DNA of 29,849 nt from a virus. The position numbers were made by a program, and so were the translations under genes. The notes beneath the pieces are model-generated. The model searched no databases. It saw only the letters and a program-made list of their open reading frames with translations, and was not told where the DNA came from. The DNA is taken from IMG/VR virus record IMGVR_UViG_3300043775_003636, positions 1-29,849 of that record. One strand, 5' to 3'. Shown piece by piece: positions 3,901 through 21,455 of the stretch (the stretch's first letter is position 1; the number at the start of each line of letters is the position of its first letter).

Positions 3901-4318
3901 TTGTAGTTGTAGAACCAAATCCTCCTTCACCTCTTTCTGTTTCTGATAATTCAGATACTTCTTCAAACGTAATTTGTGGATAAGGAAGAATGATTAATTG
4001 AGCAACTTTATCACCCATTTGATACAAGTTACCATCTTCTAAGAAACTAAATTTTAACATGATTTCACCTCTGTATCCTGAATCAATGACTCCAACACTG
4101 TTTCTTAAATGCATATCGTATTTAGAAATACTACTTCTTGGAAATACTAATCCGACATATCCTTCAGGAATTTCTACAGCTAATCCTGTATGAATTACAG
4201 CATTACCGTATGAATCTTTTTCAATACTTATTGCAGTAAGATCCATTCCTGCATCTCCATGTTTAGCATAACTTGGTATTTCTACTAAATCATGCAGTTT
4301 TTTAATTTTAACTTTCAT
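3875..4318 (-). CDS. dut: dUTP diphosphatase (trimeric dUTPase)
   Basis: Hydrolyses dUTP to dUMP and pyrophosphate, which keeps uracil out of DNA and feeds dTMP synthesis. All five motifs of the homotrimeric family are present: AGMDL at 23-27, PRSS at 60-63, GVIDSGYRGEI at 76-86 (Asp79 is the catalytic Asp), GDKVAQLIILP at 102-112 and the C-terminal P-loop-like RGEGGFGSTT at 129-138. The length of 147 aa is normal. I chose the MKVKIKKL start at 4318 because it begins the conserved fold. An upstream in-frame ATG at 4363 would add 15 residues that overlap the terminator of the preceding gene. Confidence 0.96.
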   Translation of the reverse strand: MKVKIKKLHDLVEIPSYAKHGDAGMDLTAISIEKDSYGNAVIHTGLAVEIPEGYVGLVFPRSSISKYDMHLRNSVGVIDSGYRGEIMLKFSFLEDGNLYQMGDKVAQLIILPYPQITFEEVSELSETERGEGGFGSTTTNDEKSKNL

Positions 4319-4343
4319 GTATTTTTTTTTTACAATATTAAAC

Positions 4344-4385
4344 AAAAAAATATTACGAACCAAGAATTTTATATCCTGGTTCGTA
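4344..4385 (-). terminator. Rho-independent terminator
   Basis: A perfect 9-bp stem, TACGAACCA (4354-4362) with TGGTTCGTA (4377-4385), followed in the minus-strand RNA by A then seven U (4344-4350). It lies just downstream of the 84-aa gene and before the dUTPase start, so it separates two transcription units or attenuates read-through. Confidence 0.85.
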
Positions 4386-4393
4386 AGTACTTG

Positions 4394-4648
4394 TTAATCA
4401 AATACAAATGATACTGTATTATTAAAAGGATTAAACTCAACTTGGTTGAATTTATAATACACATCTTCAGGAAGTTTAATTATATCATGCTCCTCGTGTG
4501 TAATTGTTGCTTCTTTAGCAACATTAAATTTAATAACACTATTTTCTAAGTGTTCATACTGCATCTGTTTATCAGAAACAACAGCATGAGTATTAGCAAA
4601 ATCACCTGATGCTAATACAATTCGATTGGATTTTAATTGTGTTGCCAT
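4394..4648 (-). CDS. Hypothetical protein, 84 aa
   Basis: Not recognised. Beta-strand-like segments (NRIVLASGDFANTHAVV, VIKFNVAKEATI, VEFNPFNNTVSFVFD) suggest a small beta-sandwich or similar fold. It overlaps the previous gene by one base (TAATG-like junction), and a strong terminator follows it. Confidence 0.78.
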   Translation of the reverse strand: MATQLKSNRIVLASGDFANTHAVVSDKQMQYEHLENSVIKFNVAKEATITHEEHDIIKLPEDVYYKFNQVEFNPFNNTVSFVFD

Positions 4649-14264: not shown

Positions 14265-14546
14265 TTATCTTCCTTCATATTGCCATAGCACTGCGTTACA
14301 GTAATTATGTACAGCACCTTCAGTCATACCTGTTTTGTGACAATGCTGAAGATGAATTGGGTATTGTAAAAAATTAGGAGGAAACAGTTTCCAAATAATT
14401 GGTTTACTGGTTATTCTTTCTGGAGCTGGTTCATCCAGACTTTCTCCACAGTACATGCATTTATTATCTTGTTCTTTGATGTACTGTAACCTCACTTGTC
14501 TTCGTTGTTGAGGTGACAACTTTGTGTAATCAACTGGTAATTTCAT
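14265..14546 (-). CDS. Endonuclease VII / HNH-like protein, 93 aa
   Basis: Basic helical start (LSPQQRRQVRLQYIKEQDN), then CMYCG near residue 30 and, near the end, HLQHCHKTGMTEGAVHNYCN. The CxxC plus HxH/CxxxC layout and the H.TG...G..H..CN core match the phage recombination endonuclease VII/HNH fold. The catalytic His and the Asn are kept. At 93 aa it is about half of T4 Endo VII, which suggests a single-domain nuclease. It is next to the 760-nt RNA-like region, but no splice-site evidence ties them. Confidence 0.78.
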   Translation of the reverse strand: MKLPVDYTKLSPQQRRQVRLQYIKEQDNKCMYCGESLDEPAPERITSKPIIWKLFPPNFLQYPIHLQHCHKTGMTEGAVHNYCNAVLWQYEGR

Positions 14547-15309
14547 ATGGTTTGTTATTTAGTAGTCAAGTTTTAGAATTGATAATGTGATTTAACGTGT
14601 ATCATTCATCACCAATTCCGCCACCTGACTGTTTGCAATTAATGCAAGAGAATATGTAACAATTTAGCACCCTCTTTCTTATTACATCTTAACTTATAGC
14701 AATAGAGGTCATAATAAGAGTAGGGTCGCGTAGTTAATATTTGAACAATTTTCAATTATACCACATTGGTAATACTAACTACTTGCTGAGAACTCATTAC
14801 GTGAGTAGAGATCCTGATGACTCTCTTTTTATAGGACATTGCTTTCTCAAGGCAACTCACGTTCTAGGATTACTCCTTAGTACTCTATAGGGTTCTTATG
14901 GTTTCCTATTTTCTATCTCTCTGTCAATTCAGGGTTAGTATCTTTATGTAAATATGTAGCGTTTATTTTGCTTTCAACGAGTCATTTATATCATCTCGCA
15001 TTACAAATTTACAAAGGATCAATGTTTAGCCTGTTTTCTATTTCCTTCTTCTCTATGATCGTATAGATACAATCCTCATATAACCCTCAGAAGGTAGGTT
15101 AGTGAATTTAGAGGACATTAAGACCACTCGTACTAATACGAAATTGAATTGCCCCTATTCATCCATTTCATTTGAACGTAATCAAAAGCGTCTTATTTAA
15201 TTCACAAATATTTTTAATCAGATTACCTACTGATTTCCCCTTACAGACAGTCTTGGCTTGTCTTGGACTTCCAGTGCTGTACAACACTTTGACTTAGGGA
15301 GTACTGATG
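14547..15309 (-). ncRNA. Candidate large structured RNA (about 760 nt, no gene)
   Basis: This is the longest non-coding stretch in the window. It is full of hairpins: AATCAG/CTGATT (15216-15235), TCGTA-CTAA-TACGA (15128-15141), a 7-bp stem GATTGTA/TACGATC (15057-15074, with a U-G pair that works only on the minus strand), ACTCA/TGAGT (14792-14806), TTGC/GCAA (14839-14855), TCTTATTA/TAATAAGA plus CCC/GGG (14670-14725) and TTGCA/TGCAA (14633-14647). The strand-specific pairs say it is transcribed leftward. Its length and density are in the range of ornate RNAs such as GOLLD or ROOL, which are known from phages and lie near tRNAs, but I see no homology I can vouch for. Group I core motifs are absent. 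Confidence 0.55.
14564..14630 (-). ncRNA. tRNA-Leu-like element at the 3' end of the structured RNA
   Basis: On the minus strand, AGTCAGG (14630-14624) pairs with CTTGACT (14570-14564). Directly after the first arm is TGGCGGAATTGGT, the canonical tRNA-Leu position 8 to D-loop sequence. The rest does not fold as a tRNA: the D-stem partner is missing, no anticodon arm is evident, and the T-arm is only TTCTAAA-like. It may be a degenerate or fragmentary tRNA-Leu, or a tRNA mimic within the larger RNA. The total is only 67 nt. Confidence 0.5.
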
Positions 15310-15990
15310 CTATGTTAATTTTACTCGATTCTGACCATGTTTACCTTTGTTTAAGATATTCTCAAACGCAATTACATAATCAGCTGATTTTGACAACTGA
15401 GGAACACTAATTAAATTAGTTTTTAATTTTGCTAATTCAGAACGATTCAATTTCTTATATACATTGTTGACAGCTTGTATAAACTTGTAATCTTTGTTAT
15501 AAGGAATAGATGTGCAATTTAATACATATTCTGCAATATCTTCTGCATAAGGATTCATAACAAATAGTTTTCCAAGTCTAATGTCAGAAGTTTTAATTTT
15601 GTTATCTATACATAAAGCAATTGTTGTAGACATTCCAAGATTATATTTTTCTTGGAATTTCAATAATTTTCTATAACAATCAACATGTAAACTTGCATAA
15701 GATTTAATGTAATCAGTTAATGTCCAATTTGTTTGAGTAGAATTTAACTCAATCATTTTTTTCATATAATCACCATCAATAATTTCATAGTGAATTTCAA
15801 TTCCTAATTCTTTTGCAGCAATGAATCTATGTTGTCCATCTACAATTACACCATCTTTTGTGATTAAAACAGGTCTACCAGCAATAAAACCATGTTCTTT
15901 CATTGAAGCTTTAAGTTTTTCTACTGAAGACTGTTTTATTTCTCTGTTGTTTTCAGAAAATGTGAATTTACTATAATCTTTTGTTACCAT
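15310..15990 (-). CDS. ParB/Srx-fold N-terminal domain protein, 226 aa
   Basis: Residues 10-70 form a ParB-like nuclease/CTPase fold: SSVEKLKASMKEHGF, RPVLITKDGVIVDGQHRFIAAKELG. The DGQHR motif is the signature box. The remainder is a helical region without a clear HTH. Phage ParB-like proteins can be nucleases, antirestriction-type proteins or DNA-binding regulators rather than partition factors, and there is no ParA here. It lies 8 bp downstream of the SPFH gene and immediately upstream of the structured RNA. Confidence 0.85.
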   Translation of the reverse strand: MVTKDYSKFTFSENNREIKQSSVEKLKASMKEHGFIAGRPVLITKDGVIVDGQHRFIAAKELGIEIHYEIIDGDYMKKMIELNSTQTNWTLTDYIKSYASLHVDCYRKLLKFQEKYNLGMSTTIALCIDNKIKTSDIRLGKLFVMNPYAEDIAEYVLNCTSIPYNKDYKFIQAVNNVYKKLNRSELAKLKTNLISVPQLSKSADYVIAFENILNKGKHGQNRVKLT

Positions 15991-19052: not shown

Positions 19053-21455
19053 TTAAAATGCAGCAATAATAGATAAAACTTTACTACGCTCAGAAGTACC
19101 AATACCATCTTCGAAAAGAGGCATGATAACGCTCTGAATAGCATTAGTAAGTTCAAAACCGTCTACTACCAGTCCTGCAGTTTGCAATGTATGACGAACT
19201 GAAACAGGAGTTGATAACTCTTGGTCTTTATATTGTTTTCTAATCTCGTTAGAAACTTTAACAATAGCTTGTGCAGCTTTCTCTTCAACACCTGTACGAA
19301 TCATAAGGATGTTTACCTCATCTGCTTCGCTTGGATAAGAAAGTTCTACAGGGAAGAATCTATCTAACAATGCTCTATCTATTGCATTAGTACCTGAATA
19401 CTCAGAACCAAGGTTAGCAGTAGCAAAGAAAACAGTTTCTGGACCTACAGGAACTTGTCTGTCACAATCTTCGCAAGCAACATCGACTGGTAAATAACGT
19501 CTATTATCCAAACAAGGGAACAAGATATTATTTGCAGCAAGCGGTGCACGGTTCAACTCGTCAAGCAACACAATACCATTTGACTTGATGTGATCAACAA
19601 ATGGTGCAAACTCGAACTCTGAGTGACCTGATTTACCAATTCTATGCACACCTAATAAAGCAGACTGTGCATCCTGAACAGTACCCATATCTTGGATATG
19701 CAATTCTTTGCTCATTGCTTTAGCAAGGTGGTTTAATAATTCAGTTTTACCTGCGTAATGTTATCGTAGTGGCTCTTTATCCTCTACTTCTCATACTTTA
19801 CCATTGTATGAGTTCAGACTATATCATCAACTTTTTACTCACTCAGAGAAAAGTTGTTGGGCGCTCGTGTCAGCTTCATCACCGTTCTGGTGGTATGCTA
19901 TTAGTCGTTGAACCTTCTACACATTCCTGTGTAGCTTGGCTGCTGATTGTCCTTTCATCAATTGATGTTGGAGGAGTTCCAGCAATTCACCCAATTTATA
20001 CTGGACCAGGTATAAATTTGTAATTTCCTATTATTACTACTGAAGATTTTTGTTTGCGATTGGAATACAAGTGTCTTGGAATAGAAAGACTTTTTAACAA
20101 TTCTGAAATACCCAGATGTTGGGTTTTTTCTCCTGTTTCAAGATTTTCAAGAATTATAATTTTTCTTTTTTTAAAAGATTCATATTTTGCTTTCTTTTTG
20201 TACTCAAATTTAGAAATGATTTTTTCTGAATCTGAATATTTTATTTGAAAACCTTTTATCTGTCTTCTTCCAGGACCACCAGATGCTATTCTGGTTACTT
20301 GTCTTGCATTAACATTTAGTTTTTTTGCAAATTCTGTTGCTGATACATATGATTCAATAAAGTTACCTTCTAAATCATACACTTCAATTGCTTTAGCACA
20401 AGAGTTAAGATTTTCTTTGTAGAATTGTTTAAGAGAACTTGAAATTTTCTCTTTTGTTTCTTTTTCTACAATTTGATTTAATCCTCCAATACCTTTGTCG
20501 TTTGCGTTTACTAAGTTTTTTGAAACAGTATATTTATTAATTAAACATCTTTCAACAACATGTGATTCTTTCCAACCATTTACTTTAGTAAGTAATTTGA
20601 TTTTAGGTTCAATGTTATTGTTTAATAATGATTTAATCCAATTGTTTTTGTGTGAACTTTTTTTACCAGGATAATATACAGATTCGTATCTTGCTTTGGA
20701 AATATGTTCAATCAATCGATGTTTCAAAACTTTTTTTGTTGTTCTTCCAATGTATCTTACTTTACAATCACGAGGATCGTATAATACATAAATCTTAACT
20801 TCAGTTGTTTTCATGTGTATATGTTATTTACATAACAAATATACACAAGTAATAGGTCTTATACAAATTTTTAGTTAGTTAATCCAGTTGGTCCGATAAG
20901 AAGAGTATTCTCACCTCTTAACACATTTCTCACAAGTAAATACCAGATGTCTGGTTCGATGTGAAAACCACATTCTTCTTTAGTAGGAACAGGATAGTTT
21001 GCAGCAATAGTACGCTTCAAGTTTGTTCCAGCAGGAAGAGGTTCACCTGCAGTTGGCATAGCAAACTTGGCATCCCAGTCAAATGTATAACCATATGGTT
21101 CATACTTGGTAGCCATTTCTTTTGCTTTATCTACACCAAACTCACTGTGATCAATCATATAATCAATCAAAAAATCAACCATTGGAGTAGAGTCTGGACC
21201 ACTCAATGGGAATACGTCATCACCATAATACATCGCAGTAATATTTTCTTTACGAACGTGTAAATGATCATCTTCTGGAAAATCATATCCATCAGTACAG
21301 AAAACTGTTCCTAATGGAAATTTCAAAATATCACTGATAGGTGCAGTGATTTTAATGTCTTTGACATTGATTGGTAATTTTTTCTCGAAAGATTGACCAG
21401 GTAATGTTTCAATTGCGAAGGATGTACCTTCTAAAAATGCTCTAAATAGGATCAT
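19053..21455 (-). CDS. CobS/MoxR-like AAA+ ATPase, split by a group I intron
   Basis: Two exons: 21455-20882 (574 nt) and 19753-19053 (701 nt), together 1275 nt encoding 424 aa in frame. The join gives Walker A GPTGSGKT at 188-195. Walker B is LLDE (Asp256-Glu257), followed by LNRAP, sensor-like FFATAN near 296 and an arginine-finger-like DRFF. The N-terminal ~180 residues are a substrate or partner-binding extension. Such ATPases act with VWA proteins to remodel targets, and its CobT-like partner is the next gene. Unspliced transcripts end with LTN after GPTG, so no ATPase would be made without splicing. The exon 2 ORF alone has no start of its own that keeps Walker A. Confidence 0.92.
19996..20814 (-). 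CDS. GIY-YIG homing endonuclease in intron, 272 aa
   Basis: Cuts intronless alleles so that the intron is copied in. The catalytic domain begins IYVLYDPRDCKVRYIGRT (residues 8-25), with the GIY and YIG elements degenerate as IYV...YIG and Arg24. A downstream VVERCLI likely gives the catalytic Glu (near 88). The C-terminal half has a NUMOD1-like repeat, AIEVYDLEGNFIESYVSATE, typical of DNA-binding modules in phage homing enzymes. It is read in the same direction as its host gene. Its start codon abuts a strong hairpin at 20816-20847 that could hide the translation start. Confidence 0.92.
   Translation of the reverse strand: MKTTEVKIYVLYDPRDCKVRYIGRTTKKVLKHRLIEHISKARYESVYYPGKKSSHKNNWIKSLLNNNIEPKIKLLTKVNGWKESHVVERCLINKYTVSKNLVNANDKGIGGLNQIVEKETKEKISSSLKQFYKENLNSCAKAIEVYDLEGNFIESYVSATEFAKKLNVNARQVTRIASGGPGRRQIKGFQIKYSDSEKIISKFEYKKKAKYESFKKRKIIILENLETGEKTQHLGISELLKSLSIPRHLYSNRKQKSSVVIIGNYKFIPGPV
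20816..20847 (-). promoter_or_regulatory. Hairpin directly before the endonuclease start codon
   Basis: GTGTATA and TATACAC, with TGTTAT and ATAACA inside, form a nearly complete 13-bp stem around a GTAA loop. The base of the stem ends at the ATG. In T4-type introns similar stems block endonuclease translation on full-length early mRNA. It could also be intron helix P2. Confidence 0.55.

Follow-up and report, generated by a model that had tools for sequence, protein, structure and literature searches.

What does a phage keep in 763 nt that hold no gene? The window analysed here is the whole of a 29,849-nt stretch of virus DNA (IMG/VR record IMGVR_UViG_3300043775_003636), with genes lying nearly all on the minus strand. 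A preliminary description of it had pointed to a gene-free region of about 760 nt and had proposed that this region encodes a large structured RNA, possibly related to GOLLD or ROOL, with a tRNA-Leu-like 3' end. The gap itself is real. Between 14546 and 15310 neither strand has an ORF of at least 60 aa, and the next longest gap in the window measures only 363 nt. GC content is 0.34 in the gap vs 0.31 in the whole window. All six frames are closed under the standard code, with a longest open stretch of 62 codons. A hidden coding gene with alternative decoding, which the same description had named as an outcome that would count against an RNA, was rejected: all three kinds of stop codon occur throughout the gene strand, and recoding of stops on this strand opens no gene, giving at most 62 codons.

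We found that the gap has relatives in many phages. A blastn search returned two short colinear pieces in the cultured Cellulophaga phage phi14:2 (Crassvirales), and local alignment with this phage recovered conserved blocks in the same order as in the window. A 17-mer from one conserved block matched 102 stretches in IMG/VR, about 90 of which are homologues, judged from the order in which additional conserved blocks appear. A 19-mer chosen independently from a different block gave 73 matches, 51 of them already found and 22 new, and many of the new loci carry variants of the first block. Capture-recapture suggests some 130 loci in the IMG/VR collection, a number that is not a count of independent lineages because some loci are near-identical, and the diversity of the family is underestimated because homologues were found by exact short motifs. 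Homologous loci and their records are labelled here with L-numbers (phi14:2 is L002); they come mostly from uncultured contigs.

A covariance model, R1, detects the RNA in 26 of 27 and in 15 of 18 records. On the window it scores 92 bits, with a second piece for P1/P2, the window itself being among the model's 39 sequences. Most of the 45 records checked have one RNA place per genome, and tandem copies occur in L130, L133 and L141. The copies are found in different parts of the genome, for the most part on the gene strand. Carriers include phages with relatives of the Crassvirales capsid and terminase and others with neither, on contigs of up to 306 kb; given this spread, the RNA is phage-borne and common to several lineages. 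In 85,000 cellular genomes there were 14 exact matches to the 17-mer, of which one is a homologue, on a 15.5-kb contig, and the other 13 are unrelated; plasmids gave no match to the RNA. Matches in Rheinheimera Barba phages and in Pseudoalteromonas phage HM1 are short, due to chance and negative with R1, and those in Listeria are likewise short chance matches. A search for relatives through the ParB-like neighbour found nothing. Phages phi4:1 (L120:3966-4108) and phi17:2 (L121) have only a P6-like hairpin, GACCCUACUCUUAUUA...UAAUAAGAAAGAGGG, in a short gap (about 143 nt) close to genes for Band 7 and OmpA, and phi4:1 is negative with R1.

Is the conserved element a structured RNA? Folding of the gap as a single sequence gives z = -1.55 on the minus strand, with 1 of 20 shuffles as good, and z = -0.80 on the plus strand. 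The two upstream modules fold at chance level (z = -0.85 and -0.16), the P5-P6 part folds better (z = -2.5), and so does the 3' tRNA-like hairpin (z = -7.1). We therefore regard the comparison between phages as the convincing evidence for structure and folding energy as a weak argument. The hairpins listed in the preliminary description are unremarkable by single-sequence folding, but base pairing is backed by this comparison. For it, 39 distinct cores were aligned, with the variable arms cut at fixed distances from conserved blocks, and pairs were counted against a structure of 42 pairs written from the window sequence. In these cores 92.2% of cells pair, vs 82.5% in shuffles and at most 46.5% with slid partners. 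Both sides have changed in 23 of the 42 pairs (14.1 in shuffles), and 127 cells carry such changes (36.8 in shuffles). Base pairing on the minus strand is thus firmly supported, and compensated helix changes exceed the controls, as in a structured noncoding RNA family. Most of the covariation signal lies in P3, P4 and P4a, while P5 and the outer part of P6 are conserved. P1 and P2 are misplaced by the trimmed alignment, so these helices were checked outside the pair counts, by listing their strands and by inspection only, and their changes are compensated. Wobble pairs also fit the minus strand of the window, as had been claimed from the window alone: columns 61/70 are U-G in 19 of 39 cores and alternate with G-C, A-U and G-U. 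Altogether, the proposal of a large structured RNA gains support from the homologues and their covariation, and from these sequences we conclude that the element very probably represents a new structured RNA family.

The conserved part is smaller than the gap. Comparison between phages defines a core whose near-invariant helices run from P1 to P6; four of them, P2, P4, P5 and P6, bear hypervariable arms (Table 1). The core ranges from about 230 to 460 nt, and the earlier picture of an RNA spanning some 760 nt throughout has to be replaced by one of a 377-nt core plus optional modules. P3 in the window carries an additional inserted hairpin, and the P4 stem appears among relatives as GUGUUG/CAACAC, AUGCAG/CUGCAU and other variants. 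The inner part of P6 is paired in 63% of cells, a low value because the arms differ in register. The proposed pseudoknot is uninformative in the main set since both of its strands are invariant there. The invariance of UUCUCAG is due in part to its presence in the search pattern, and that of UUCUCAGCAAGUAGUUA in the main set holds by construction, UUCUCAGCAAGUAGUUA having served as search pattern. A second motif scan found the wobble-compatible variant UUCUCGG in L126 and L127.

Table 1. Coordinates of the RNA, its parts and its neighbours in the window.
Feature	Position	Strand	Observation
RNA-bearing gene-free region	14547..15309	-	no ORF of at least 60 aa; longest gap in window
ParB-like protein gene, upstream neighbour	15310..15990	-	PHROG 12305, E 8e-24
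Optional 5' module	15212..15308	-	99% identical in L022, 96% in L102
Second optional 5' module	15108..15208	-	related to P2 arm of L004 and L017; 72% identity, 112 columns, E 0.005
Conserved RNA core, type A, P1 to P6	14661..15037, 377 nt	-	order and structure homologous to about 90 loci
P1 hairpin, conserved loop UAAACAUUGA	15014..15033	-	loop near invariant; compensated stem: CTCA/TGAG, GTCG/CGAC, AACC/GGTT
P2 stem GUAAAU/AUUUAC, variable arm	14948..15012	-	relatives: GTAAAT/ATTTAC, GTGAAA/TTTCAC, GTGAAC/GTTCAC
P3 hairpin CUA-GG-AGUAAU-CC-UAG	14864..14938	-	100% of cells paired; both-side changes in 5/5 pairs
P4 stem ACGUGAG/CUCACGU (14862-14856 with 14805-14799), variable arm	14799..14862	-	97% paired; both-side changes in 6/7 pairs
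P4a hairpin UUGC-CUUGAGAAA-GCAA	14839..14855	-	95% paired; both-side changes in 4/4 pairs
Proposed pseudoknot, P4a loop UUGAGAA (14850-14844) with UUCUCAG (14792-14786)	14786..14850	-	invariant in main set
P5 stem GUAGUUA/UAACUAC, variable arm	14730..14782	-	98% paired; one-side changes only
P6 stem ACCCU...AGGGU, variable arm	14669..14726	-	97% paired in outer five pairs
Degenerate tRNA-Leu-like element, 3' side	14564..14630	-	8-bp acceptor-like stem and D-arm motif, z = -7.1
Small endonuclease VII-like protein gene, downstream neighbour	14265..14546	-	Pfam PF02945, PHROG 14729

Between phages the arms vary both in sequence and in length, and they are exchanged: 56 pairs of loci have at least one arm in common and another arm different. 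The P6 arm of the window falls in the same arm cluster as that of L004 while the other arms of the two differ, and L134 has an exact copy of the window's P4 arm. The mosaic is explained by recombination at the conserved core, with selection as a possible driver. In folding, the arms barely exceed chance (mean z -0.06 to -0.62 vs -0.18 for controls). Extra 5' domains are likewise present or absent depending on the phage, and the counterparts of the outermost module in L022 and L102 immediately precede the core on its 5' side. In L033, L049 and L084 the same 3' domain is joined to a second kind of 5' domain (type B), which has a similar UGAGA loop, and in L084 types A and B stand in succession. 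A further conserved noncoding domain, ACCAAUGCU...GACACAGGUUGGUAA, occurs in L034, L036, L044, L048, L064, L086, L091 and L101, in several of them directly upstream of the core. In place of such additions, the window carries its own pair of 5' modules (Table 1).

Does this RNA belong to a known class? The preliminary description had suggested GOLLD or ROOL and a search with the GOLLD, ROOL, HEARO and OLE models; Rfam 15 gives no match to the window region even at E 10, and for L083 the same threshold returns only its tRNA and two chance matches. At gathering score, only tmRNA, tRNA and one GOLLD are called across 29 homologous loci. That GOLLD, in L025, scores 250 bits, serves as a positive control and lies about 1.5 kb from the RNA, within an island that comprises 20 tRNA genes. 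Because both occur separately in this island, the RNA and GOLLD are different genes, and the suggested assignment fails. GOLLD RNA (RF02032) resembles our RNA as a large, ornate, phage-borne RNA of tRNA islands with a conserved 3' part and a less conserved 5' part (PMC12286853), a phage and tRNA-island setting that the relatives share; it differs in that its covariance model gives no match at gathering score, there is no sequence match, and our RNA has a smaller conserved core (about 230-460 nt). ROOL RNA (RF03087) is also phage-borne, large, pseudoknotted and often found near tRNA islands (PMC12286853), but no Rfam match to it was found in any of the 27 records searched, though no control genome gave a ROOL signal either. 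Both GOLLD and ROOL form RNA-only cages (PMC12286853). Phage tmRNA (RF00023) is a pseudoknotted RNA too and neighbours ours in several phages; unlike tmRNA, the core has neither a tRNA-like domain nor a tag reading frame, and Rfam and ARAGORN call only the neighbouring tmRNA. No description of the class was found in the open-licence literature, whose coverage is incomplete, so an earlier description is possible.

Group I introns with homing endonucleases are similar to the RNA in having peripheral loops able to host homing-endonuclease ORFs. Such ORFs, named here from sequence reading, lie in the RNA loops of several relatives: HNH/NUMOD4-like in L005, L008, L041 and L099, GIY-YIG-like in L055, and one on the other strand at about 3840-4330 in L036. 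However, the RNA is not inserted in a gene but stands between complete neighbouring genes, which differ between loci, and the group I model (RF00028) does not match the window core at E 10 or L005, L008 and others at gathering score. Elsewhere in the window, a group I intron was detected at 19790-20068 (minus strand, 90.9 bits), beside a homing-endonuclease-like ORF at 19996-20814 (minus strand; by eye a putative GIY-YIG). The two apparently split an AAA+ ATPase gene into 19053-19715, with AAA_5/CbbQ_C, and 20871-21455, assigned by position only.

The surroundings of the RNA hint at a link with translation. ARAGORN places a tmRNA at most 400 nt downstream in 15 of the 89 loci with enough sequence and upstream in none of the 89; other loci have a tRNA or tRNA-Leu-like element downstream. 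Many of the tmRNA-bearing loci come from one phage clade whose members resemble each other in gene order and in their terminases, so the cases are not independent and the tmRNA neighbourhood is suggestive only. In phi14:2 we located a tmRNA gene at L002:3840-4309 (about 4031-4500 in KC821624), where the record annotates short hypothetical ORFs instead. No protein gene is constantly near the RNA among the loci compared, so no protein partner is indicated. The tRNA-Leu-like 3' end proposed for the window stands in part: only an acceptor-like stem and a D-arm motif (AGTCAGGTGGCGGAATTGG...ACTTGACTA) are present, and the element is degenerate, lacks a T arm and is called as tRNA by neither ARAGORN nor Rfam. 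No tRNA is called in the window at all. A phage and tRNA setting is nevertheless seen in relatives, with intact or variant tRNA-Leu-like copies beside the RNA. Such elements occur, sometimes several in a row, in L083, L055, L039, L061, L100, L017 and L102; their acceptor, D and T parts are constant and the middle is variable, about 20-80 nt.

How might such an RNA work? During infection the RNA would be transcribed along with adjacent tRNA or tmRNA genes, and processing at the tRNA-like element that follows would often define its 3' end. It would fold into a stable particle and act on the translation machinery (tRNAs, tmRNA or the ribosome) while the phage takes over the cell; the core would serve as a scaffold, and the arms would provide contact surfaces that can be interchanged. 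Comparison of the loci establishes a conserved, structured, phage-borne RNA on the gene strand with shuffled arms; its action on translation we infer from the neighbours and from analogy with GOLLD and ROOL. A translation-linked mechanism is a tentative proposal, possible but somewhat unlikely. The statement as a whole, that a trans-acting phage RNA gene outside Rfam, with shuffled arms, acts on the translation machinery, we put not far short of an even chance.

Among rival functions the strongest is that of an anti-defence decoy: the core would be a scaffold that presents the hypervariable arms as baits, these would change in an arms race against RNA-targeting defences of the host, and the tRNA-like elements would follow the same strategy. 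The almost fixed core, the swapping of hypervariable arms among the 56 locus pairs, and the repetition of a constant and variable pattern in the tRNA-Leu-like elements would all fit; yet the arms are weakly structured and may just be loops under no constraint, which ordinary recombination at the conserved core has exchanged, and we consider a decoy unlikely. Also distinctly unlikely is a broader version, in which the four shuffled arms on their invariant scaffold are interchangeable heads that recognise or decoy either host RNA-targeting defences or translation factors, accompanied by tRNA-like elements with constant ends and a variable middle. A selfish, intron-like mobile element, spread by homing endonucleases riding in its loops, would account for the HNH/NUMOD4-like, GIY-YIG-like and other-strand ORFs and for the tandem copies. 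It is nonetheless improbable: the majority of copies have no ORF and usually occupy a single place per genome, the RNA is intergenic and interrupts no gene, group I matches are absent from the window core and from L005 and L008 at the thresholds given above, and the RNA gene may simply offer the endonucleases a conserved target.

Position bears on the remaining readings. The RNA shares the strand of neighbouring genes in most loci, as a cis-acting leader or processing element of a downstream gene would, but those downstream neighbours vary (endonuclease, tmRNA, tRNA and other genes) and begin from about 15 to more than 1000 nt away, and the RNA is large and ornate for a leader, which makes this role quite improbable. 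The setting in phages and tRNA islands, the large size and a 5' part less conserved than the 3' part would suit a GOLLD or ROOL RNA that has diverged very far; we give this almost no credence, given the empty search at E 10, the separate GOLLD gene beside the RNA in L025 and the failure to find ROOL in the records searched. Hardly more credible is an origin, a packaging site or a decayed gene, for although the region is noncoding, hairpin-rich and mostly single-copy, its wobble pairs and compensated changes fit an RNA made from one strand, and the varied places of its copies in the genomes, mostly on the gene strand, speak against an element acting as DNA.

Why does a further phage RNA matter? 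We know of few classes of large phage RNA, chiefly GOLLD and ROOL, and their functions are open. The RNA described here adds a class that is unrelated to these two and has more than 100 examples. Phage annotation misses such RNA genes: the phi14:2 record covers the region, where the RNA would be read from the plus strand at about 2.9-3.4 kb, with three short annotated ORFs, gp007-gp009 (L002:2915-3240), which run opposite to the RNA gene strand and are probably spurious. One example lies in a growable phage, phi14:2 on Cellulophaga baltica, and expression, deletion and structure are therefore directly testable. To our knowledge, neither GOLLD nor ROOL combines a fixed core with hypervariable arms that are swapped, a pattern that may reflect an arms race.
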